From: Chloroflexota bacterium
GTDB taxonomy: Bacteria; Chloroflexota; Chloroflexia; Chloroflexales; Roseiflexaceae
Assembly: GCA_003670675.1 (NCBI GenBank)
Contig: QWQY01000002.1
Coordinates: 1-48,110, forward strand
Length of the DNA stretch: 48,110 nt
Direction: 5' to 3'
Shown here: positions 3,246-24,810 of the stretch, one piece after another
Layout: each line of letters opens with the position of its first letter
How positions within the stretch are numbered: position 1 is the stretch's first letter
Notes under the pieces: generated by a model
The model's database searches: none
What the model saw: only the letters and a program-made list of their open reading frames with translations
What the model was told of the DNA's origin: nothing
Position numbers and translations under genes: made by a program

Positions 3246-6215
3246 ATGCGTAGACTCTCGCTAGCGGTGTTTTCTGTGCTTATCATCCTGGCATGCTGTG
3301 CCGTCGCACTCCGAACGCAGTCGTTCGACTCTCGTGTCGCCGCTGCGCCGCGACTGAGTCGGTCGACGCAGATTTCGCTGGGCAGTGATCACTCCTGCGC
3401 AATGCTGACGACGGGCGTCGTCAAATGCTGGGGGGCTAATAACAACGGACAATTGGGGTTGGGTAACACCAATAGTTATGGTGATGCCGTGAGCGAAACC
3501 GGCGCAGGCCTCCCTGCCGTCGACCTCGATCAGACGGCCAAATACATCAGTGCGGGGTACGGGCATACCTGTGCAATCCGGAACGACAATTCGACTGTCT
3601 GTTGGGGCGAAAATTTTTGGGGCACATTAGGAAACGGTAGCAGATCAAACATCGGCGACAACAGTGGTGAGATGGGGAGTTCCCTTATTGCAGTGGACTT
3701 AAGTACGGACTATGCCACATCGCTGAGTGCTGGCTATCAATTTACATGTGCAATCCTGAATACAAGTCAGGTCAAATGTTGGGGGGTAAACGACGTAGGC
3801 CAAACCGGCGCTGATGGCTGGCATGGAATGTCGAGCGACACGATGGGGGCGAATCTGCCCGCCGTCAACCTGGGTGCGGGTCGCACCGCCAAGGCTATTT
3901 CAGCCGGGCGGCAGCACGCATGCGCAATACTCGACAATGATACCGTCAAATGTTGGGGCGCGAATACCTACGGCCAACTCGGATTGGGGAATACGGCTAG
4001 TCTGGTGTATCCGAACATTGGAGAAGCTGCGGTTGTCAATCTCGGCACTGGTCGTACTGCCAAAACCATTGCAGCTGGTTCGTACCACACCTGTGCCATA
4101 CTCGACAACGGGAGCCTCAAGTGTTGGGGATTCAACGCGTCTGGCCAATTAGGGCAAGACACGACAGCAAACATCGGCGATGGCAGTGGCGAAATGGGTG
4201 ATTCCTTGCCCGCGATCAACCTCGGCTCGGGGAGAACCGCAGTTGCAGTTGCAGCGTGTAAACGTGGCGATCTCGACTATACCTGTGCCATCCTCGATAA
4301 TGGGACCCTCAAATGCTGGGGTGATAATGGGTTCGGCCAACTCGGCCAAGGTGATATGAATAATCGTGGCGATTCGACGGCTGAAATGGCAGCCCTCGCA
4401 GCCGTGAACCTCGGTACAGGGATACAGGTAACAGCGGTGGCGATTGGTGCAGCGCACAGCTGTCAGATATTGAGCTCGACGAACATCAAATGTTTCGGCC
4501 ATGGGCAAAACGGGAAATTGGGCTATGGTGATGCGGACACGCGCGGATATACTTCGTCAGCGATGGGGGATAACCTCCCTATAGTGGACCTCGATGGTGT
4601 CTCACCTACCGCGACCAGCACCCCGGTTGACACAGACACTCCGACCGCGTCCAACACCCCGGTCGACACGAGCACCCCATCGCAGACCAATACACCGACG
4701 GTGACGCGCACCGCATCCAAAACATACACCCGCAGCAAGACCCCCACCCGCAGCAAAACCAAAACCAAAACCAGAACACCCACCAAGTCCAAGACACCCA
4801 CCCGTACACCCATCGGCTATGTCTCGCGCGTTTCTGCACTGGCAAGTGGATCGAGTCACTCCTGCGCAATCCTGGCTAGCTCGGTGGTCAAATGCTGGGG
4901 GCTCAATACCAACGGGCAACTCGGACTGGGCGACACCGCCAGCCGCGGTGATGCCGGCGGCGAAATGGGCAACTCCCTCCCCGCTGTCGATCTCGGCACC
5001 GGTGTGCTGGCCAGCAAAATCTATGCGGGCAGTGACCATACCTGCATTCTAACCACCACCAAACGCGTCAAATGTTGGGGCGGCAATGGTGCCGGCCAAC
5101 TCGGCATCGGCGATACCAACCATCGCGGCGATGGCAGTGGCGAGATGGGGGACATACTCCCATACGTCGACCTCGGTACGGGGCGCACCGCGAGCGCTGT
5201 AGCACTCGGCGAAGGCAGCACCTGCGCACTCCTCGACAACGCGACGCTTGTGTGTTGGGGCCAGAATGTATTCGGCCAGCTCGGCGTCGGGTCGATAGAC
5301 ACTATTGGTGATGCAAGCAGCGAAATGGGCGATGCACTGGTCCCCGTAGACGTGGGGACCGGCCGGACGGTCAAGAGCATTGCAGCGCGTTCATTGGGCT
5401 ACTGTGCACTCTTGGATGATGACTCCATCAAATGCTGGGGCAACAACTGGGACGGTCAACTCGGCGTCGGCGATACCGACCATCGCGGCGATGGCAGTGG
5501 CGAAATGGGCGATGACCTTGCACGTGTCCCGTTCAGTACCGATCTGACTCCCGTCGAACTCGCAGGCAATGCGGATGCAGCGTGCGCCCGCTTCGACGAC
5601 GGCACGGTGCGCTGCTGGGGGTCGAACGTCTACGGCGCATTGGGCATCGGCGATGCAGTCAATCGTGGCGAATCCGCCGGTCAAATCGCAGCCCTGAGCG
5701 CCATCGACCTAGGCAGTGGTCATACCGCCAAGCGCATCTATGGCGGCCTCGGGAACTCGTTCTGCGCACTCCTCGACGATGATTCTCTCAAATGCTGGGG
5801 CGATAACTCCGATGCCAATCTGGGCATTGGCGTCGGCGCTACCGACACCAATTGGGGTAATGCAACCGGCGAAATGGGTGACACCCTACCGACCGTAGAT
5901 GTTGGTACGGGAACGACCGTCAGCGCATTGAGCATCGGCAGCGACTTCCGCTGTGCCATCCTCACCATCAGCACCGGCGTCAAATGCTGGGGCGAGAATA
6001 GCAACGGCCAACTCGGCAGTGGCTCAACCACCGAAGACTACGGCGTCTACCCGGCGAGCGACATGGGCGACGCGCTGCCTTTTGTCCGCTTAGGAATCAT
6101 CGTTCCGAGCACATCCACCCCGACACCCACCAAAACCCTGTCCCCGTCGCGCACCAAGAGCACAACCAAGACGCTCACCCCTTCACGCACTGCGACGCGC
6201 ACCACTGCTCCATAA
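3246..6215 (+). CDS. Secreted RCC1-repeat protein, paralog of the upstream gene
   Basis: This 989-aa protein starts at ATG 3246 with GGAG seven bases upstream. Its N-terminus (MRR, then a hydrophobic stretch ending in Ala-rich sequence near residue 35) looks like a signal peptide. It has the same architecture as the preceding gene: seven RCC1 units, a Ser/Thr/Pro/Lys linker (about residues 455-525), seven more units, and a second Thr/Lys/Pro tail at the very C-terminus that the first gene lacks. Nearly every blade keeps the paired cysteines around the K-C-W-G motif. The first propeller resembles those of the upstream protein (both have a DLDYTCAILD blade), while the second is more diverged. 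The C-terminal tail may be wall-associated or glycosylated; that is inference. It has its own promoter region and terminator. Confidence 0.85.
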   Translation: MRRLSLAVFSVLIILACCAVALRTQSFDSRVAAAPRLSRSTQISLGSDHSCAMLTTGVVKCWGANNNGQLGLGNTNSYGDAVSETGAGLPAVDLDQTAKYISAGYGHTCAIRNDNSTVCWGENFWGTLGNGSRSNIGDNSGEMGSSLIAVDLSTDYATSLSAGYQFTCAILNTSQVKCWGVNDVGQTGADGWHGMSSDTMGANLPAVNLGAGRTAKAISAGRQHACAILDNDTVKCWGANTYGQLGLGNTASLVYPNIGEAAVVNLGTGRTAKTIAAGSYHTCAILDNGSLKCWGFNASGQLGQDTTANIGDGSGEMGDSLPAINLGSGRTAVAVAACKRGDLDYTCAILDNGTLKCWGDNGFGQLGQGDMNNRGDSTAEMAALAAVNLGTGIQVTAVAIGAAHSCQILSSTNIKCFGHGQNGKLGYGDADTRGYTSSAMGDNLPIVDLDGVSPTATSTPVDTDTPTASNTPVDTSTPSQTNTPTVTRTASKTYTRSKTPTRSKTKTKTRTPTKSKTPTRTPIGYVSRVSALASGSSHSCAILASSVVKCWGLNTNGQLGLGDTASRGDAGGEMGNSLPAVDLGTGVLASKIYAGSDHTCILTTTKRVKCWGGNGAGQLGIGDTNHRGDGSGEMGDILPYVDLGTGRTASAVALGEGSTCALLDNATLVCWGQNVFGQLGVGSIDTIGDASSEMGDALVPVDVGTGRTVKSIAARSLGYCALLDDDSIKCWGNNWDGQLGVGDTDHRGDGSGEMGDDLARVPFSTDLTPVELAGNADAACARFDDGTVRCWGSNVYGALGIGDAVNRGESAGQIAALSAIDLGSGHTAKRIYGGLGNSFCALLDDDSLKCWGDNSDANLGIGVGATDTNWGNATGEMGDTLPTVDVGTGTTVSALSIGSDFRCAILTISTGVKCWGENSNGQLGSGSTTEDYGVYPASDMGDALPFVRLGIIVPSTSTPTPTKTLSPSRTKSTTKTLTPSRTATRTTAP

Positions 6216-6244
6216 TCGTCACCAGTTCGCGATTGCAATTCTCC

Positions 6245-6275
6245 CCCGCACGTGTCGTGGCACGTGCGGGTTTTC
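6245..6275 (+). terminator. Rho-independent terminator after second RCC1 gene
   Basis: A 10-bp perfect stem (CCCGCACGTG / CACGTGCGGG) with a 6-nt loop is followed by TTTTCTTT. It lies inside the longest ORF reading for the next gene, which argues for that gene's later start. Confidence 0.9.
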
Positions 6276-6355
6276 TTTGCGCGCCCCCATGCAAACACAT
6301 CAGCCACGCACACTTGGTAGAATGCAGACAACAGACGCAACAGAAGTGGACATCC

Positions 6356-7219
6356 ATGCCGGCACACCGCACAACGTTGACGCGCTACAACCTCGATGAC
6401 GTCGTGGTAGCGTTCGGTGCAACAACTCGTCCGTTGCGGCGTGCTGTGGTGCGGACCATGGCATGGTGGCCGGCGTACCGGTTGGCACAGACGCTCGTTG
6501 AGGCAGACAAACGTGCCGCCACGGTCGGCATCGTATCGGCCTGTGCGCACCTCGTCACCCGCATTGCCGGCGCTACCGAGCCCATCGGGGCAGCATGCAT
6601 CCCACCCACGGGGCCACTCATCTGCGTGGCCAATCACCCCGGCCTGGTCGATGCCCCAGCACTCGTGCAGACCATCGGTCGTGGCGATCTGCGTATCATC
6701 GCCGCCGAACGCCCGCTGTTGCAGGCAATGCCCGGCTTTGCACCCTACCTCATCGAAGTCCCCGATGCCGGTCCCGGTCGGGCCCATGCACTGCGTGCGG
6801 CAGTGCGCCACGTGCGCCAGGGTGGCGCGCTGCTGACATTCCCCGCCGGGCGTATCGAAGCGGATCCTGCGGTGTTGGACGACGCCCAGGCAACCTTGCC
6901 GCTCTGGTCCGACATGCCCGCAATCCTGCGCCGCGCCGTCCCCAACGCCACCGTCGTCGGCATGTTGGTCAGTGGGGTGACGTCAGCACGCGCGCTCCAT
7001 CACCCATGGGTGCAACGGGTCCCCGTGCGCCGTGACCGCGAATGGCTGGCAGCAACGTTGCAACTCATCATTCCGTGGTTTCGCGCGCCGGTGGTGCGTG
7101 TCCGGGTGGCTGCCGTCGCGCCCCATGACGGTGTCGTGGCGGAGATGTATCAACTCATCTGTGACGAACGCCGTGCCCGCGGGTTACCCACGCCGGCACG
7201 GAGCGAGGATCTGCCATGA
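6356..7219 (+). CDS. PlsC-like acyltransferase (glycerolipid type)
   Basis: The protein has 287 residues from ATG 6356. The track ORF starts 41 codons earlier but would run through the upstream terminator, so the later ATG is preferred. The acyltransferase block-I motif NH-x4-D is present as NHPGLVD, and a block-III-like motif is present as TFPAGRIE in place of the usual FPEGTRS. These place it in the PlsC/LPLAT superfamily, which moves acyl chains from acyl-CoA or acyl-ACP to lysophospholipids at the membrane. The replacement of the usual Glu and Ser/Thr in block III leaves the substrate uncertain. The stop overlaps the start of the next gene (ATGA), so the two are probably translated together. 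Confidence 0.7.
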   Translation: MPAHRTTLTRYNLDDVVVAFGATTRPLRRAVVRTMAWWPAYRLAQTLVEADKRAATVGIVSACAHLVTRIAGATEPIGAACIPPTGPLICVANHPGLVDAPALVQTIGRGDLRIIAAERPLLQAMPGFAPYLIEVPDAGPGRAHALRAAVRHVRQGGALLTFPAGRIEADPAVLDDAQATLPLWSDMPAILRRAVPNATVVGMLVSGVTSARALHHPWVQRVPVRRDREWLAATLQLIIPWFRAPVVRVRVAAVAPHDGVVAEMYQLICDERRARGLPTPARSEDLP

Positions 7220-12456: not shown

Positions 12457-12532
12457 GGGGGTGTAGCTCAGCTGGTAGAGCGCGACAATCGCACTGTCGA
12501 GGCCAGGAGTTCGAGCCTCCTCACCTCCACCA
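12457..12532 (+). tRNA. tRNA-Ala (anticodon CGC)
   Basis: The 76-nt cloverleaf folds fully by hand: acceptor GGGGGTG/CACCTCC, D stem GCTC/GAGC, anticodon stem CGACA/TGTCG, a loop with CGC at 12490-12492, a 5-nt variable loop, T stem AGGAG/CTCCT with TTCGAGC loop, discriminator A and an encoded CCA. The G3-U70 wobble pair, the main alanine identity element, is present. It reads GCG codons. Confidence 0.95.
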
Positions 12533-12546
12533 AGTTCATAATGTCT

Positions 12547-12622
12547 GGGGCAATAGCTCAGTTGGTAGAGCGCAACGCTGGCAGTGTTGAGGTCTGGGGT
12601 TCGACCCCCCATTGCTCCACCA
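12547..12622 (+). tRNA. tRNA-Ala (anticodon GGC)
   Basis: The 76-nt cloverleaf starts 14 nt after the first tRNA: acceptor GGGGCAA/TTGCTCC with G3-U70, D stem GCTC/GAGC, anticodon stem CAACG/TGTTG (one G-U), anticodon GGC at 12580-12582, T stem TGGGG/CCCCA, discriminator A and an encoded CCA. It reads GCC (and GCU by wobble). It shares the promoter at 12414. Confidence 0.95.
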
Positions 12623-14380: not shown

Positions 14381-14464
14381 TTGTTTTGGGCAACAGAACG
14401 CGCCAAAAAGCGTTGTCCCGTGCGTTACAATAATCACAATGTGAACGCAATCAAAGGACGCCCC

Positions 14465-15760
14465 ATGCGAATCCCGACCCTTATCCGACTCAGTGCCATC
14501 CACGTATCCGTCGCGTTGACATTGTTGCCCATCAACAGCACCCTCAACCGCATCATGATTACCGAACTGGGTATTTCTGCGACCCTCGTCGCGTTGCTTG
14601 TATCGGTGCCGTATCTACTTTCACCGATGCAGCTCTGGATCGGGTCACTCGGCGAACAGCGCCCGATTTGGGGCTACCACCGCAGTCCCTACATCATCAT
14701 CGGGCTGCTCCTGTGTGCATTTGGAGCAGCCAGCTCACCCACTGCTGCATTTGCCATCTATGACGGGCTGTGGTGGGGCATCCCGTTTGGGTTTTTGGCG
14801 TTCGGTGCGTGGGGCTTCGGATTCAACTTTGCGACGGTCTCGTATCTCGCATTGGCAACCGAGCTGTCGAGCCCCCAAGAACGCTCCAAAACGGTCGGTG
14901 TGATGTGGTTTGTCCTCATCCTGAGCATGATTATTGGCGGTATCAGTTTTTCTCGTGCCATCGAGCCCTACTCACACGAACGGCTCATCACTGCCTTTAT
15001 CGAGATGGCCGGTTTGGCACTGGGTATCGGCCTCCTCGGCGTCATCGGGCTTGAGCAACGCGGTCCTGCAGCAGTACCCGCCGAGCAGAGACCCAGCATG
15101 CAGGTCGTTTTGCGCACGGTATGGGGCAATCCGCAAGCCAAACGGTTCTTCGTCTATCTCATTTTGTTGTTGGTTGGCTTGTTGGGTCAGGATGTCCTGC
15201 TCGAGCCATACGCCGGCGACATCTTCGGCGTTCCACCGGCAGTCACCACACGCTATACCTCGATCTGGGGAGCGACGTTGTTGCTGGGGCTCTTGATTAC
15301 CAGCCCACTCACCAAACGCTACGGGATGAAGCGCGTCGCAGGTAGTGGAGCTGTCATCGCAGCACTCGGGTTGGGGTTGATTGTGTCAGCCGGCGCGGTT
15401 CATGAAGTCGGACTATTGGTACCAGGGCTGGCAGTGTTCGGCTTTGGATCGGGGATTTCTACCGCGGCCAACCTCGCACTGATGCTCGATATGACCGTGG
15501 CTGGCCAGGTGGGTATTTTCATTGGTGCCTGGGGCGTGGCAGATGCGTTGGCGCGCTTCGGGGGCACCATGCTCAGCGGTATCATCCGCGATGTCGTCGG
15601 GTATGCCCTCGGGAGCGTGTATGCGGGCTACGCCGTCGTCTTCGGCATCGAGATAGCCCTGTTCGGCTTTTCGCTCATCTTGCTGAGAAATATCGAAGTC
15701 AAAGACTTCACCCGCCATGCGTCCACCCGCGACGTCATCGCTGCAGCCGGCAACGTGTAA
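14465..15760 (+). CDS. pucC: PucC/LhaA-family MFS transporter (antenna assembly)
   Basis: The protein has 431 residues from ATG 14465 and twelve apparent membrane segments. The BCD/PucC family is indicated by the N-terminal R-L-S-x-I-H layout, RSPYIIIG near residue 80, and above all the QDVLLEPYAGDIFG motif near residue 241, which matches the QD-x-L-L-E-P-Y-G signature of PucC, LhaA and BchG-linked transporters. In phototrophs these proteins are needed to assemble light-harvesting complexes, probably by handling bacteriochlorophyll. The presence of pucC is the best single argument that the host is a chlorophototroph. No other photosynthesis gene is nearby, so the gene sits outside any photosynthesis cluster. 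Confidence 0.8.
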   Translation: MRIPTLIRLSAIHVSVALTLLPINSTLNRIMITELGISATLVALLVSVPYLLSPMQLWIGSLGEQRPIWGYHRSPYIIIGLLLCAFGAASSPTAAFAIYDGLWWGIPFGFLAFGAWGFGFNFATVSYLALATELSSPQERSKTVGVMWFVLILSMIIGGISFSRAIEPYSHERLITAFIEMAGLALGIGLLGVIGLEQRGPAAVPAEQRPSMQVVLRTVWGNPQAKRFFVYLILLLVGLLGQDVLLEPYAGDIFGVPPAVTTRYTSIWGATLLLGLLITSPLTKRYGMKRVAGSGAVIAALGLGLIVSAGAVHEVGLLVPGLAVFGFGSGISTAANLALMLDMTVAGQVGIFIGAWGVADALARFGGTMLSGIIRDVVGYALGSVYAGYAVVFGIEIALFGFSLILLRNIEVKDFTRHASTRDVIAAAGNV

Positions 15761-15804: not shown

Positions 15805-16968
15805 CTATTGCATGACGCTGGCTTCGCAGAAAAACGACGCGAGCGCCGGCGGCAAAATTTCGGCAAAGCGCGTCGTGTCGCCGACGGCATGACCGGCGAG
15901 GGGCATCAGACGCGCAGTCAATGGCTTTTTGAGCGCAGTAGCAACCGACGCTACCTCGCGATACATGCCCGCCAACGCGTCGACCGACACATCAGCCGCC
16001 AGCGGGATGGTATCGAGCCCTGTGCCGCAGACCGTACTAAATGCCAACAAATCCCGCAACGTATAGCGACCCTCGCGTGCCCGCTGGGCCAACACTGCAT
16101 CCTCGACCACCGGCAACATAATGCCCGAAAAGCCCAACTGTGTGACCGCACAGGCGCGGATCGTCGCCGTCAAGGCGCGTACCGCACTCAGCGTGCCCCA
16201 GCCACCAAACGGCACTCCTGACAGCGCCTCGATGGCACCTGCGATGCTCCGCTCGGGGTGGGGATGCGGCGCAAGCGACCAATCACAGCCCGCATAACCA
16301 ATCCCATACTGCGCACAAATTGGTTGGGCAATGCGGGCGAACAGCGCATCGTAGCGCACAATATCGGTAGCCAACTGCTGCAACGCTGTCGCCACCAACC
16401 GCGGTCGGTCGGCGTGGCCGAGTGGCACCTCTGCCAGCGGGCGGGTTGCCTGCCAGGCCAACGCTGCCGCCTCGGGGCCAATCGCCAGCCATGGGGCACC
16501 GCCGTCGTGCCACGAGGCGGGGAAGAACGGGCTGCCCGCGGGTACCTGTGCCAACGCCGCTACCCGCAGGTTGCCCACGCCGCCCGGTACGATCCGAGCC
16601 AGGTCGTGTGTCATCCGCGCCATCTGCTGGATAGCTCCTTCGTCGACGGCGTCGTGCGTCGTCAACGACACACTGGCAAATAACGCCTGCGTGGCAGCCA
16701 TTGCATCGGCGAGTTGATCGAGGCGCTCGCGCTGCACAACGCCGAGGGTGACGTAATCAAACCCCAAATCCAACGCGCGCTCTTCGAGCCCACAGGCCAC
16801 ACTGACCAGGTCGGCGCAACTGTTGAACCCATCTACCGTCGGCGTGGCCCGCAATGTCTGCACCACAACGCCCTCACGGGCGAGCTGCGTGCGCAGTGCT
16901 GCGGCGGCATCGGCGGCCCGTTGCCAATCCTTCTCGCGCGTGCCAACGGTAATCGTGCGTAGCTCCAT
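15805..16968 (-). CDS. DUF711 / UPF0210 family protein
   Basis: The 387-aa protein opens with MELRTITVGT, and the family signature follows: V-V-V-Q-T-L-R near residue 35, GYAGCDWSLAPHPHP-x-R-S near 230, GTLSAVRALTATIR, LGFSGIMLPVVEDAVLAQ near 285, FSTVCGTGLDTIPLAADVS near 315, and LAGHAVGDTTRF near 370. UPF0210 proteins have a glycyl-radical-like fold without the radical machinery, and their role is unsettled. In many bacteria they pair with an ACT-domain protein, and none is seen here. The gene is last in a six-gene minus-strand operon, 9 nt after azlD, and so is linked by context to amino-acid export. Confidence 0.85.
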   Translation of the reverse strand: MELRTITVGTREKDWQRAADAAAALRTQLAREGVVVQTLRATPTVDGFNSCADLVSVACGLEERALDLGFDYVTLGVVQRERLDQLADAMAATQALFASVSLTTHDAVDEGAIQQMARMTHDLARIVPGGVGNLRVAALAQVPAGSPFFPASWHDGGAPWLAIGPEAAALAWQATRPLAEVPLGHADRPRLVATALQQLATDIVRYDALFARIAQPICAQYGIGYAGCDWSLAPHPHPERSIAGAIEALSGVPFGGWGTLSAVRALTATIRACAVTQLGFSGIMLPVVEDAVLAQRAREGRYTLRDLLAFSTVCGTGLDTIPLAADVSVDALAGMYREVASVATALKKPLTARLMPLAGHAVGDTTRFAEILPPALASFFCEASVMQ

Positions 16969-16977
16969 GGTCTGCTC

Positions 16978-17298
16978 CTAGCCGCCCATCACCATGCGAA
17001 TAATCCAAAAGGACACCATTCCGCAGACGACCGTCAAAATGGCGTTGCTGGTGCGCCATGCCACCAATGCACCGATGATGCCTGCAAGCACTGCCGGCCC
17101 GAGCGACAACACCCGCCCCGCCGCACCACTCGTGGTGACCAACGCCGGCACGACCAAGGCCGTAAACACCGCCGCCGGCACATACCGGAGCCACAACGCC
17201 AACCACGGTGGCGGATTGTTGCGCATCACCAGCAACGGGATCGCCCGGGCTGCGTAGGTCACCGCCGCCATGCCCACATAGGTCAACCAAATACTCAT
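16978..17298 (-). CDS. azlD: AzlD-family branched-chain amino-acid export subunit
   Basis: The 106-aa, four-segment membrane protein has the AzlD pattern: TYAARAIPLLV near residue 15, LRYVPAAVFTALVVP near 38, a glycine/alanine-rich central helix, and a C-terminal VVCGMVSFWI. AzlD is the small partner of AzlC in an exporter of branched-chain amino acids (azaleucine resistance in Bacillus; the same arrangement as BrnFE). The start overlaps the aminotransferase stop by 4 bp (ATGA). Unusually, azlC and azlD are not adjacent; an aminotransferase lies between them. Confidence 0.88.
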   Translation of the reverse strand: MSIWLTYVGMAAVTYAARAIPLLVMRNNPPPWLALWLRYVPAAVFTALVVPALVTTSGAAGRVLSLGPAVLAGIIGALVAWRTSNAILTVVCGMVSFWIIRMVMGG

Positions 17299-18425
17299 GC
17301 CGTTGCTCCTGGCAGGGTGTCGAGGTAGGCAGCAAATGTGTGCAAACCGACATCAAAATCTTCTTTGCCAAAGCCGATGCGAAAGAAGTTCCCGGGATAC
17401 CCGTAGACCGTTGCCGGCAACACCAACACCCCGTGCTGTGTTTTCAGTGTGTCTGCAGCATCAGCAATAGTTGTATCACCCAGCAACTCAGGGAACGCTA
17501 CACTCCCCGCCTGTGGTGCCACCATCCGTAATTGATGCGGGCGGTCCATGCACAACTGATGAAAGAGCTGCAGGTTGCGCAACACAATCGAGCGACTGCG
17601 TGCCAACATGCGTGTCCGTGCGCGCAAGGCAATCAGCGAAAGGATTTCGGACGGGGCCGAATTACAGATCGTCGTGTAGTCTTTGTAGGCCATCATACGG
17701 GCCCGGAGTTCACTATCGCGGATAATCAACCAACCAACGCGTAGACCCGCCAGACCGAATGCTTTGGACATCACGCTCAGGCTCAAGCCACGGGTGCTGA
17801 GTTCGCAGGCAGCAGGCAGGCGATCTGCCGGGTTGTACTCAAGCAGGCGATAGACTTCGTCCGCAAACAGGTACGCCCCCGCGGCCTCGGCGATGTCCAC
17901 CACCGTGCGCCATTCGTCGTGCGTCAACGTCGCACCGGTCGGATTGTGGGGCACGTTGAGCAGAATCAGCTTCGTATTGGGGCGCACAGTGCGGCGCAAT
18001 GCCTCGATGTCGAGCTTCCACTTCTGCTCTGGTTTGAGCTCGATCAGCGTCACATCGGCACCGGTCGCGCGGCCTACTTCGTAGAGCGACTGATACCCGG
18101 GCCAGGTGGTAATCATGTGATCACCCGGGCCGAGAAGAACGTTAGCGGCGATATAGACGGCTTCTTCGGCACCGGCAAAGGTCAGTACGTCGTCGGGGCT
18201 AATCCCGCTGTACATCGATGCGATTTCGGCACGCAAGACAGGCAACCCGGCGGTCTCGGTATAGCCGAGGGTCAGGTCGTCCCAACGCTGGCGCGCATCA
18301 TCGTCGGCAAGGGCCAACACATCGCGCATCGCCATGCCTTGGATATCAGAACTACAGAGGATATGTGGGGTCGAAAACTCGTGCTTTGCGAAATAGCGCT
18401 CGAGTGCAAAATCAGCAATACGCAT
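17295..18425 (-). CDS. PLP-dependent class I/II aminotransferase inside the azl operon
   Basis: The protein has 376 residues from ATG 18425, sharing one base with the azlC stop; the longer track ORF runs back into azlC and is rejected. Fold-type I features are clear: PGYQSLYE near 105, NVPHNPTGATLT near 158, ADEVYR near 190, the Schiff-base lysine about residue 221 in SKAFGLAGLRVGW, and the substrate-binding arginine in FFRIGFG near 347. It fits aspartate-aminotransferase-like enzymes of the capreomycidine/arginine or broad amino-acid type, and the exact substrate cannot be read. Its position between azlC and azlD, overlapping both, implies it makes or removes the amino acid that the exporter handles. 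Confidence 0.88.
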   Translation of the reverse strand: MRIADFALERYFAKHEFSTPHILCSSDIQGMAMRDVLALADDDARQRWDDLTLGYTETAGLPVLRAEIASMYSGISPDDVLTFAGAEEAVYIAANVLLGPGDHMITTWPGYQSLYEVGRATGADVTLIELKPEQKWKLDIEALRRTVRPNTKLILLNVPHNPTGATLTHDEWRTVVDIAEAAGAYLFADEVYRLLEYNPADRLPAACELSTRGLSLSVMSKAFGLAGLRVGWLIIRDSELRARMMAYKDYTTICNSAPSEILSLIALRARTRMLARSRSIVLRNLQLFHQLCMDRPHQLRMVAPQAGSVAFPELLGDTTIADAADTLKTQHGVLVLPATVYGYPGNFFRIGFGKEDFDVGLHTFAAYLDTLPGATA

Positions 18426-19147
18426 CAGGGTTGCTCCTCTGGGGCTTGCATAGGCGTCAGAACGGCGAACCATGCACCGAACGCGCTCCCGATTAATCCT
18501 GCCAACAACACATACCAGCTCCCCGGCAACCACAACGCCGCCGCCACCGAAATCCCCGCCGCCAACAATGCCACCGAGCGATTGACGCGGTCGCGCACCA
18601 TGGGCATCAAGAAGGCGATGAACGTCAATGGGAAAATCAAATCCAGCCCGAGGCCGGCGGGGTCCGGGATCAGTGCGCCCAACAGGCTGCCAATCACCGT
18701 GCTCAACGCCCAAATGAAGTAGAGACTCAGATTGGCACCGAACTGGAACCACGCGTCCCCGCCGGTTTTCTCAAACTGCTGGACCCCTATCGCGTATGTC
18801 TCGTCGGTCAACTGGAAGGCCACCACTGCCCGCAACCAACCGGGCGACTGCCGAATATACGACGCCGTCGAGGCCGCCAACAACAGATGCCGCGCATTGA
18901 TAATCGCCGTCGCCGCAATAATGCTAATCGGGTTGGCACCTGCCGCAAATAACCCGACCGCAGTGAACTGCGATGCACCCGCAAACACGATCAGCGACAT
19001 CCCCAACGTCTCGGCAAAGCTCAATCCTGCCGCCAATGCACTGACGGCATAGACCATCCCAAACGGCGCCACCCCTGGCCACACAATTATCGTTGCAACA
19101 AATCCGCTACGTATCGCCTGCCAGCGACCGGTTGTCTCACCCTGCAT
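18425..19147 (-). CDS. azlC: AzlC-family branched-chain amino-acid export subunit
   Basis: The 240-aa protein has the AzlC layout: PGVAPFGMVYAVSALAAGLS near residue 24, the FAGASQFTA motif near 55, INARHLLLAAS near 82, FQLTDETYAIG near 110, and about seven membrane helices. AzlC is the large subunit of the AzlCD exporter. It begins 15 nt after the methyltransferase stop and its TGA overlaps the aminotransferase ATG (TGATG). Together with azlD further downstream the exporter is complete. Confidence 0.9.
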   Translation of the reverse strand: MQGETTGRWQAIRSGFVATIIVWPGVAPFGMVYAVSALAAGLSFAETLGMSLIVFAGASQFTAVGLFAAGANPISIIAATAIINARHLLLAASTASYIRQSPGWLRAVVAFQLTDETYAIGVQQFEKTGGDAWFQFGANLSLYFIWALSTVIGSLLGALIPDPAGLGLDLIFPLTFIAFLMPMVRDRVNRSVALLAAGISVAAALWLPGSWYVLLAGLIGSAFGAWFAVLTPMQAPEEQP

Positions 19148-19162
19148 ACCGAAACTTTCTGC

Positions 19163-19933
19163 TTAGCGCGGCACCACACCACTGATGAGTGCCACCGGGA
19201 TATGAAAACTACAATCTGCCTCGATCCCGAGTGCTTGTTTGACCGATTCGGGCGCTGCACCCAACATGCGCCGCAACTGCGCAACCTCGGGCTCGGGCGT
19301 CGCCATGCGTGTGACCCAGCTGGTAAACTCCAGCCGCACCGACCATGTCTGCTCATGCGTACCGACAAAGCCCACTGCCGCATACATGGCCAGCCACTGG
19401 CTGACGCAGTGATCGCGCACGTGCGATGGGTCACGCAAGATTTCGACAGCATTGAGAAAGGTGTCTGGCATCGGCGCTTCGGGCGAGACGACATCCACCA
19501 GCAACCACCGTCCACCCGGCTTGAGGACCCTGAATATCTCGCGCAGAGCTGACAAAGGATCAGCGAAATGATGCGCTGCATAGCGCGAAACTGCAACATC
19601 GAATGAATCATCCGGATACGGCAATTGCATGGCATCCGCTGCCTCGACCGTCACATTGCGCAAGCCCTTGGCAGCAACCTGTGCGCGGGTTTGGGCGAGC
19701 ATGGCCGGCGTCAAATCGACGGCCACCACCGCGGCAGCCTGCCCGGCCAGCCCGATGGTGACGTGACCCGCGCCGCAGCCGACATCGATGACGCGTTCGC
19801 TACCGGTGAGTGCGGCTGCCGCAATCAATCCCTGCAAATCGGCGCCACTGGCGTGCACCGTGCTGGTGGTGTAATTCGCAGCTACCGCGCCGAATTGCTG
19901 TTGGATCGATTGATTGATGCTGCTGTCGCTCAT
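19163..19933 (-). CDS. Class I SAM-dependent methyltransferase (UbiE-like)
   Basis: The 256-aa protein has SAM-binding motif I VIDVGCGAGHVTI near residue 48, motif II acidic residue in VVAVDLT near 70, DAMQLPYPDDSFDVAVSRYAAHHF near 104, and the LKPGGRWLLVD post-motif near 138. This is the Methyltransf_11/UbiE pattern for small-molecule methylation. It overlaps the alaX stop by 4 bp (ATGA). UbiE-type quinone methylation is possible, but the context gives no direct support. Confidence 0.85.
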   Translation of the reverse strand: MSDSSINQSIQQQFGAVAANYTTSTVHASGADLQGLIAAAALTGSERVIDVGCGAGHVTIGLAGQAAAVVAVDLTPAMLAQTRAQVAAKGLRNVTVEAADAMQLPYPDDSFDVAVSRYAAHHFADPLSALREIFRVLKPGGRWLLVDVVSPEAPMPDTFLNAVEILRDPSHVRDHCVSQWLAMYAAVGFVGTHEQTWSVRLEFTSWVTRMATPEPEVAQLRRMLGAAPESVKQALGIEADCSFHIPVALISGVVPR

Positions 19934-20646
19934 ACCAAGCCCACGATGATCCGTTTGTTGGTCGCGCCTTTGCTGCGGGTCTTGAGCAACGTCACCGTGC
20001 CCACTTCGGACGTGCGTGCGACATGGGTGCCGCCGTCCGCCTGCAAATCGAGCCCAACGATGTTGACGGTCCGTATCTCGCTGATCCCTTCGGGGAGCAG
20101 ATTGATTTTGGTGCGGATCAAGTCGGGGATGGCAAATGCCTCGGCACGGGGCAAAATACTGACCTCGAGGGGACGGTCCGCGGCGACTTCGACGTTGACG
20201 GCGTCGACGATTTTTTGGGCCAGTTCCGGGCTAAAGTCGCTTATCTCGAAGTCCAACCGGCCTTCGTCAATGTCCATGTTCCCACCGGTCACCAGGGCAC
20301 CATAATCGCGGAAGACCACACCGCACAGCAGATGCATTGCGGTGTGCGTGCGCATCAGGCGGTAGCGGCGCTCCCAATCAATGGTCACAGTAACGGCAGC
20401 GCCGACTGCTGGTCGTGATTCGCCGGTGAGCACATGCACGACGCCGTCAGCAGTTTTTTTGACCTCGCTGATGCTGTACTCTTGGCCGTCTGCACGCATC
20501 GTGCCGGTATCATGTGGCTGACCGCCGCTGGTGCAGTAGGCTATTGTTTGGTCGAGGATAACGCCGTTGCCTTCGGTGCTGTGGCCAGTGACGGTGGCGG
20601 TGCACGTGCGCAGGTATGCGTCGCTGTGATAGAGCAATGTAGTCAT
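19930..20646 (-). CDS. AlaX-type alanyl-tRNA editing protein
   Basis: The protein has 238 residues from ATG 20646. The track start is a TTG 3 nt downstream of a -10 hexamer and is unlikely. The zinc ligands of the alanyl-tRNA editing domain are present: HTAMH near residues 97-101 and DGGTHV with His about 208. The usual Cys of CGGTH is Asp, as in some AlaX classes. N-terminal features typical of the family, such as ILDQTIAYCTSGGQPHDTG, are clear. AlaX hydrolyses Ser- or Gly-mischarged tRNA-Ala in trans. It is the first gene of the azl operon. Confidence 0.88.
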   Translation of the reverse strand: MTTLLYHSDAYLRTCTATVTGHSTEGNGVILDQTIAYCTSGGQPHDTGTMRADGQEYSISEVKKTADGVVHVLTGESRPAVGAAVTVTIDWERRYRLMRTHTAMHLLCGVVFRDYGALVTGGNMDIDEGRLDFEISDFSPELAQKIVDAVNVEVAADRPLEVSILPRAEAFAIPDLIRTKINLLPEGISEIRTVNIVGLDLQADGGTHVARTSEVGTVTLLKTRSKGATNKRIIVGLV

Positions 20647-20672: not shown

Positions 20673-20678
20673 ATTATA
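20673..20678 (-). promoter_or_regulatory. -10 element for the alaX-azl operon
   Basis: A perfect TATAAT on the minus strand lies 27 nt before the alaX start. No good -35 is found at 16-18 bp. It is the only convincing promoter ahead of the six-gene operon. Confidence 0.5.
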
Positions 20679-20831: not shown

Positions 20832-21566
20832 ATGCACGGACCAATCAGCGCAGTCTGCTGTAATCACAACACATCGAAATATATGGAACTCATGTTACGT
20901 TCGTTCGATGCAACCCATGCGGATCAGTGTATCGACCACTGGACACTCTACGATAATGCGTCCATAGACGACACAGCCAGCGTGTTTGCGTATGCACAGT
21001 CACGCGGCACTCCAATCCAACAATCCGGCTATACCACAGATACCCAACATGTCAGTCACGGAGCGCTCTTGCAGCGCGCTATAACGGCATTCCCCGACAG
21101 TCTGTATGTAGTGCTGTTTGATGCTGATATTGTCTTTACACAACACCAAACCATTCCGCGTATGATTACTCAATTGGCAGACGATCCACAGGCTTGGGCA
21201 ATTGGGGTCGCACCATCGTGGGATGGTCAAACTGAAGTTCCACCCGAGGCGCGTGCTGCAAATCCCGACATCTGCGATGCGCGCTTGCATCCTGCCTGTG
21301 CGGTCATCAAAAACACCCCGCTTTTTCGCACCGTCCTCGCCTGCGTGGGGATGGGGACATACGTGCGTCATTACCCAGAGCGCGATGAGTACCTCGATAC
21401 CTGCAAATTGCTGACACAGGTGATGCACACACACGGCATGCATCACCGAGTGAGTTCAGATATTATGGTCAAGCACTTCTTTTGCACATCGTACGAGTGG
21501 GATGATGCAGACCTTCGCGCTGCGAAAATGCAAACCCGTGATGCGCTGCTCGCAGCGTACCGGTGA
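20832..21566 (+). CDS. Glycosyltransferase-like protein (GT-A fold, probable)
   Basis: The 244-aa protein starts at ATG 20832 with GGAGTGG upstream. The N-terminus resembles GT2-type enzymes: ISAVCCNHNTSKYMELMLRS for the first strand and helix, Y-D-N-A-S-I-D-D-T for the nucleotide pocket, then VVLFDADIVF near residue 96, a DxD-like metal motif. Several cysteines and a C-terminal DIMVKHFFCTSYEWDD follow. It probably transfers a sugar onto a cell-surface acceptor. It lies just before a GT-C-like membrane protein, and both may act on the same glycan. Confidence 0.6.
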   Translation: MHGPISAVCCNHNTSKYMELMLRSFDATHADQCIDHWTLYDNASIDDTASVFAYAQSRGTPIQQSGYTTDTQHVSHGALLQRAITAFPDSLYVVLFDADIVFTQHQTIPRMITQLADDPQAWAIGVAPSWDGQTEVPPEARAANPDICDARLHPACAVIKNTPLFRTVLACVGMGTYVRHYPERDEYLDTCKLLTQVMHTHGMHHRVSSDIMVKHFFCTSYEWDDADLRAAKMQTRDALLAAYR

Positions 21567-23607: not shown

Positions 23608-24810
23608 TCATAATTCATCTTTAAATATGTGCCACGCTGCAATCCCTGCGCAGAGGTACGCCGCACCAGCGAACCAGACAAGCGGGGCAAAGCCGTAGAC
23701 AGGCTGCACAAAGCCGCTCAGGAGCGACGCCGAACCCCAGCCCGCCGACCACATAATCGTAATCATGCTCATCGCGACACCGCGTTGTTTGGGCTTCACA
23801 AAGCGCATTATCTGCAAATCGCTGAGCGTCACCGCCATGCCCAGCGAAAACGCACGCCACAGGTACCCAACAATCGCCAGCGCCTGCCACGGCGCCAAAA
23901 TCAGCAATACCCCTGGCCCCGCCAGCGCGCGCAGAGCGGCGACCCAAAACCGCAAACGCCGTTTGGCCAGGAAGTGTCCCGACAGCAGTGCTCCGCAGCC
24001 AATCGCCAGCTCGGCAAACGAAATAACCACACCGACGCTCTGATCCGGCAACCCAAACTGGTTGCGCAACAACAGACTCTGGAACGGGATAATCGCACCG
24101 CCGCCCAATCCCATCAGCAAATTGGGCACTCCATAGAGCAAAAAATGCCGCCGCAATTGTGGAGTCCCGGCATTCGCCTCGGCATCCCGCGCATGCTCCT
24201 CGTGGTGCTCGGTCACCCGCACAAATAAAATGGGCAGGATCGACAGATAGAAAAGCCCCACTCCGATGAGCATCGCCGATCGATAGGCAGGCATTGACTG
24301 TGCATCGACCTGCATCATGGGTGCCAAAACACTCGGCATCCACCCGGCGATGATGCCGCCAATCAGCCCAATGCTAATCGATGCCTCGTTCAACCCAAAA
24401 ATGAACCCACGTTGCGATTCGTCGTCGGTCGTCGCAGTCAACAACGGCATGATGGCCGTCATCGCCAATGCGGCGCAACATCCATTGAGGAACTGCGTCA
24501 CAATAATCCAGAACACCGACGGTGCATACAGCTGCCACGTCAACGTCGCCGCAAAAAACAGCATGGCGATTGCTAACGATCGCCGTGATCCGTATCGATC
24601 AATCAAGATCCCCACCGGGACCCCGACTATCAATCCCGCCACACGCATCGTCGTCGACAAGATCCCGGCCAGCTCGCTACCGAAGCCACGACTGACCAGG
24701 AAAAAATTGAACAACACATCAAAAAAACTAATCCCCAACCCAAACAACACCGCATGCAAGAGCACAAACCAGGCGGCCCGTGGAACGTTTCGAATCGATT
24801 GCATTGACAT
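23608..24810 (-). CDS. MFS transporter
   Basis: The 400-aa protein has twelve hydrophobic segments in two six-helix halves. The loop-2/3 MFS motif is present as VGVPVGILIDRYGSRRSLA near residue 62, and a second partial copy as SGHFLAKRRLRFW near 275. This is a drug/metabolite proton antiporter fold; the substrate cannot be read. The start (MSMQ) could be residue 1 or 3. It is divergent from the DMT transporter with a 12-bp palindrome between. Confidence 0.8.
   Translation of the reverse strand: MSMQSIRNVPRAAWFVLLHAVLFGLGISFFDVLFNFFLVSRGFGSELAGILSTTMRVAGLIVGVPVGILIDRYGSRRSLAIAMLFFAATLTWQLYAPSVFWIIVTQFLNGCCAALAMTAIMPLLTATTDDESQRGFIFGLNEASISIGLIGGIIAGWMPSVLAPMMQVDAQSMPAYRSAMLIGVGLFYLSILPILFVRVTEHHEEHARDAEANAGTPQLRRHFLLYGVPNLLMGLGGGAIIPFQSLLLRNQFGLPDQSVGVVISFAELAIGCGALLSGHFLAKRRLRFWVAALRALAGPGVLLILAPWQALAIVGYLWRAFSLGMAVTLSDLQIMRFVKPKQRGVAMSMITIMWSAGWGSASLLSGFVQPVYGFAPLVWFAGAAYLCAGIAAWHIFKDEL

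Follow-up and report, generated by a model that had tools for sequence, protein, structure and literature searches.

To our knowledge nothing in the function of the two-subunit amino-acid exporter AzlCD requires its genes to be adjacent, but adjacency is usual, and a locus in which azlC and azlD are parted by the gene of a PLP-dependent enzyme raises the question of whether enzyme and exporter belong to one functional unit and, if so, what that unit would serve. Such a locus is found in the window, i.e. the whole stretch of 48,110 nucleotides that was analysed, where six intact and complete genes follow each other on the minus strand. In transcription order, these and the associated promoter element are:

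19930..20646, minus strand: alaX, alanyl-tRNA editing protein of AlaX-M type, 238 aa (PF01411/PF07973)
19163..19933, minus strand: MT, class I SAM-dependent methyltransferase, 256 aa (Pfam Methyltransf_11, above cut-off)
18425..19147, minus strand: azlC, large subunit of the AzlCD exporter, 240 aa (PF03591, 127.6 bits)
17295..18425, minus strand: AT, PLP-dependent class I/II aminotransferase-like enzyme, 376 aa (Aminotran_1_2)
16978..17298, minus strand: azlD, small subunit of the AzlCD exporter, 106 aa (PF05437, 80.7 bits)
15805..16968, minus strand: DUF711 (UPF0210-related) protein, 387 aa (PF05167)
20673..20678, minus strand: TATAAT box, the likely -10 promoter element, lying 26 nt ahead of the alaX start codon (ATG)

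All six products contain a Pfam domain scoring above cut-off (tRNA_SAD/tRNA-synt_2c for alaX, then Methyltransf_11, AzlC, Aminotran_1_2, AzlD and DUF711). The genes are tightly packed, with a 4-bp ATGA overlap between alaX and MT, a gap of 15 nt between MT and azlC, a 1-bp overlap (TGATG) between azlC and AT, a second 4-bp ATGA overlap between AT and azlD, and a gap of 9 nt before the DUF711 gene; ribosome binding sites of the AGGAG type precede AT, azlD and the DUF711 gene. A preliminary description of this DNA had reported six genes on one strand with gaps of at most 15 nt, as found here, and three 4-bp overlaps or shared bases; the three overlapping junctions stand, two of them sharing 4 bp and the third a single base. 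The genes on both flanks, of the PucC family downstream (14381-15760) and at 20832 and 21690 upstream, lie on the opposite strand, so that the ends of the operon are natural. The convergent PucC-family transporter gene is expectable in a lineage with phototrophic relatives.

In each of the ten sequences from the genus, alaX is preceded at a comparable distance by a -10-like hexamer (TATAAT, TAGAAT or TATAGT), although the DNA around it is divergent; a generic promoter scan did not report the TATAAT box of the window. In three loci of a second subclade (L025, L028 and L029), alaX is preceded on its own strand by a tandem array of two or three MFS genes. The -10-like box lies between these genes and alaX, which is therefore taken as the first gene of the operon. 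The window also carries an MFS transporter gene (23608-24810), of which the MFS genes upstream of alaX in these three loci are tandem homologues (about 40-50% identity).

Conservation and the azlC-azlD junction

The metagenome-assembled genome from which the window derives, as contig 78, is estimated to be 72% complete, and the members of this freshwater Roseiflexaceae genus are apparently metagenome bins. The cluster is present in 10 of the 11 genomes of the genus, with its order kept as far as the contigs reach: nine genomes have an unbroken azlC-AT-azlD run on a single contig, and the contig of G003 stops within AT. AT identity across these ten genomes ranges from 68 to 98%, and the distance between azlC and azlD is 1113-1126 nt in the eight loci checked. 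In the eleventh genome (G005, 91% complete), no AT orthologue, azlC, MT or DUF711 gene was found, and AlaX is represented by a distant paralogue only; this joint absence speaks for the genes as a unit. Four comparisons with the window yielded dN/dS values of 0.04-0.16 for most genes and of at most 0.27 (azlD), indicating purifying selection. Recurrence of gene order, low dN/dS and the kept -10 box place the six-gene arrangement beyond chance, and bear out the earlier view of the cluster as one unit. The DUF711 gene is tied less tightly to the operon than the other genes, its distance from azlD reaching about 115 nt in the second subclade; it is unlinked to the other operon genes in related genera, and was discarded as a candidate for an old part of the module.

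The split between the two exporter genes was surveyed across Chloroflexota and in six annotated plasmid loci outside the phylum (Archaea, Deinococcus and Alphaproteobacteria). On other Chloroflexota contigs that carry both genes, azlC adjoins azlD in 56 of 58 loci, mostly with a 4-bp overlap and in three cases with 169-400 nt between the predicted frames, and the two genes overlap in all six plasmid loci. The split is thus as unusual as had been supposed. The preliminary description had also taken relatives with adjacent azlC and azlD and the other genes scattered as evidence against a unit; such relatives exist outside the genus and are lacking inside it. Adjacency outside the genus, never seen inside it, argues that the split is derived and the full arrangement specific to the genus.

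The two exceptions (L140 and L233) belong to other genera of the same family. L140, from genome G020, carries the gene of a PALP enzyme resembling serine/threonine dehydratases (1944-2918) between azlC and azlD, and L233, from genome G017, that of a PLP decarboxylase (5457-6878) which overlaps azlD by 4 bp. Three genera of the family therefore have three different PLP enzymes at the azlC-azlD junction. In an AzlC tree, the genus with the dehydratase-like enzyme groups (84/83) with two genera that have adjacent azlCD genes; the backbone is unresolved, and the tree was set aside as an arbiter between one ancestral slot and repeated insertion.

The encoded proteins

Both exporter subunits are well past their Pfam gathering scores (AzlC, 127.6 versus 32.1 bits; AzlD, 80.7 versus 23.7 bits). 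AT belongs to the class I/II PLP fold, with an Aminotran_1_2 score of 154.5 bits and a PLP lysine in the motif SKAFGLAG that aligns with K219 of GntC. Its best curated families are PRK07324 and the PLP-dependent arginine cyclases GntC and VioD, every one of them below cut-off (266.8 bits against 415 for GntC, 231.8 against 390.9 for VioD). Residues E9, S25 and S26 are common to GntC, VioD and OrfR, and T84 and H250 belong to the GntC site (PMC10367076). In a pairwise alignment with GntC, AT shares the equivalents of E9 and S25, like the PLP lysine, but has D, E and I in place of S26, T84 and H250, respectively. These replacements, together with the failed cut-offs, make a role as arginine cyclase unlikely; plain transamination or elimination are possible reactions. 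Plasmid-borne relatives of AT (38-44% identity; L098, L099 and L100) in Sinorhizobium, Streptomyces and Phaeobacter follow the gene of a PAS domain-containing protein.

The alaX product resembles trans-editing proteins of the AlaX-M type in domain content, length, HxxxH motif and C-terminal GGTH motif. Its match to the NCBIfam model AlaXM (NF040865) spans residues 2-235 of 238, and at 268.3 bits stays below the curated cut-off of 300. The first motif is intact (HTAMH), but the second reads ADGGTH instead of CGGTH, so that of the AlaXM ligand set HxxxH plus CxxxH the metal-binding Cys is replaced by Asp. In the motif comparison, the window shares ADGGTH with all close relatives and with actinobacterial Nonomuraea, and CGGTH is kept in AlaRS proteins (two of which have CGGVH) and in the more distant AlaX proteins; a second AlaX paralogue also retains Cys. 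Asp can bind zinc, and the site may thus be changed rather than dead; the low dN/dS supports function. The exchange in this clade is a variant of the usual zinc site that lends itself to testing. Four of five genera in the order (the window genus, G016, G017 and G037/G055) have members of this AlaX subclade (57-97% identity) next to AT, azlCD or both; alaX stands alone in G032/G038. Two tRNA-Ala genes in tandem, with CGC and GGC as anticodons (12457-12622), lie about 3 kb past the end of the operon. Of seven related loci scanned, L022 alone has such a pair; the other six may stop short, and the tRNA genes are treated here as neighbours and not as part of an AlaX module.

The nearest solved relative of MT is YcgJ of B. 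subtilis (1xxl). The DUF711 protein scores 210.3 bits against a gathering score of 25 (PF05167) and has a solved relative (2ha9); we know of no function for this family. A literature search on DUF711/UPF0210 and on the arrangement azlC-aminotransferase-azlD returned nothing functional.

Recurring gene associations and possible function

Parts of the operon are repeatedly associated in relatives. Genome G016 has azlD-AT-alaX at a contig end and azlC at the end of another contig, which probably joins it. G017 has AT-alaX-MT-GNAT and G014 has AT-MT; the ATs of these three genomes are MocR-domain-like and not orthologous to that of the window. In G037 and G055 alaX is convergent with azlD-azlC, and in G026 a MocR-type AT gene lies upstream of azlC-azlD. 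Eight genes in a row in G048 (L244, 3-5754) encode an AT-like protein, an ammonia-lyase that passes the cut-off for threo-3-hydroxyaspartate ammonia-lyase, an FMN-binding protein, PhzF, RidA, GNAT, AzlC and AzlD; RidA beside an ammonia-lyase fits the quenching of reactive enamine products. In G319, which belongs to the class but to a different order, the series is azlC-azlD-AT-PhzF; its AT falls in the PRK07324/GntC group, and its azlC is distant (35%). In Priestia a LysE exporter gene is followed by alaX, with GNAT and methyltransferase genes nearby, and in Sinorhizobium a PLP cysteine synthase gene is followed by alaX. These recurring associations lend support, at the level of gene neighbourhoods, to the earlier suggestion that PLP enzyme, exporter and AlaX are coupled, with AlaX as a possible guard against mischarging.

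We lean towards the view that the six genes form one operon which limits the harm done by a surplus or analogue small amino acid, i.e. a unit for disposal and quality control. AzlC and AzlD together would act as a broad amino-acid exporter, and the PLP enzyme, whose coding sequence overlaps both of theirs and is translated between them, would convert the exported amino acid by transamination or elimination, conversion and export thereby being made together. AlaX would strip the amino acid, perhaps serine, glycine or an analogue, when misloaded on tRNA-Ala, and MT and the DUF711 protein would be passengers or accessory enzymes. One operon would then link three ways to cope with a harmful amino acid, namely to convert it, to export it and to remove it from tRNA.

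We infer disposal and quality control from the RidA gene beside that of an ammonia-lyase, from export data on AzlCD and from precedent for editing proteins. In B. subtilis, AzlCD, the bipartite exporter of toxic or surplus amino acids encoded in the azlBCD operon, mediates export of 4-azaleucine, histidine and asparagine and has a part in resistance to 2,3-diaminopropionate (PMC11005379, PMC10882977). The window likewise encodes both subunits at full length, but differs in the PLP-enzyme gene that parts them, and the operon was not found to include a regulator of the azlB type. The precedent is CtdA, a canavanyl-tRNA-Arg deacylase encoded beside the canavanine utilisation operon (PMC10018355). 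A stand-alone editing protein is there encoded alongside enzymes acting on that toxic compound, which shows that editing proteins can travel with the metabolism of the offending amino acid. Unlike the AlaX of the window, CtdA has the PheRS B3/B4 fold and acts on tRNA-Arg, and no exporter is mentioned in the passages considered (PMC10018355).

Several observations speak against disposal. The group to which AT belongs includes the biosynthetic cyclases GntC and VioD, and AT may itself be anabolic; Asp in place of the metal-binding Cys leaves the predicted activity of AlaX not assured; a methyltransferase is unexpected in a disposal unit; and AzlCD of B. subtilis has no significant role in serine export (PMC10882977). 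The operon could instead be a small biosynthetic system, in which a methylated non-standard amino acid is made and exported via AzlCD and AlaX shields the tRNA-Ala of the producer. The grouping of AT nearest to GntC, VioD and PRK07324, with cyclases of non-canonical amino acids (PMC10367076), would agree with this, as would the recurrence of MT and AlaX together beside AT in G017, and exporter plus editing protein would be a plausible set for self-protection. Nevertheless, we consider such a system unlikely: the operon lacks backbone enzymes such as an oxygenase, a carrier protein or a ligase, AT keeps only part of the GntC residues, and the cluster is kept in nearly the whole genus instead of being scattered in the manner of secondary metabolism. 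The making and methylating of a non-standard amino acid, proposed earlier, hence finds no specific support, since in addition no substrate can be assigned to MT and the slot enzymes of sister genera differ. Disposal fits better than synthesis with the dehydratase-like enzyme and the decarboxylase in those slots, and with RidA, GNAT, PhzF and ammonia-lyase in related clusters.

The arrangement might also reflect ordinary co-transcription in a compact genome, AT being a housekeeping transaminase that is functionally unconnected with AzlCD and AlaX. Genomes of the genus are indeed compact (about 3 Mb), and AT homologues outside the order occur in varied contexts, away from azlCD in 26 of 27 Chloroflexota loci, which disqualifies them as a general marker of the system. 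This explanation is nonetheless improbable: PLP enzymes recur beside azlCD, and AlaX beside AT or exporters; the insertion between two subunit genes is maintained genus-wide; and in G319 the same AT subfamily follows azlC-azlD despite the distant azlC.

The genes of the two exporter subunits are thus parted more than once by that of a PLP enzyme, and the enzyme in the slot offers a direct clue to the cargo of the exporter, an open question for most AzlCD systems. It is tempting to go further and regard the azlC-azlD junction in Roseiflexaceae as a functional slot with exchangeable PLP enzymes that hand their product or substrate directly to AzlCD, with AlaX as a back-up at the level of tRNA; this seems very doubtful, and if true would describe an enzyme-coupled amino-acid export module in which the slot enzyme decides what gets disposed of.
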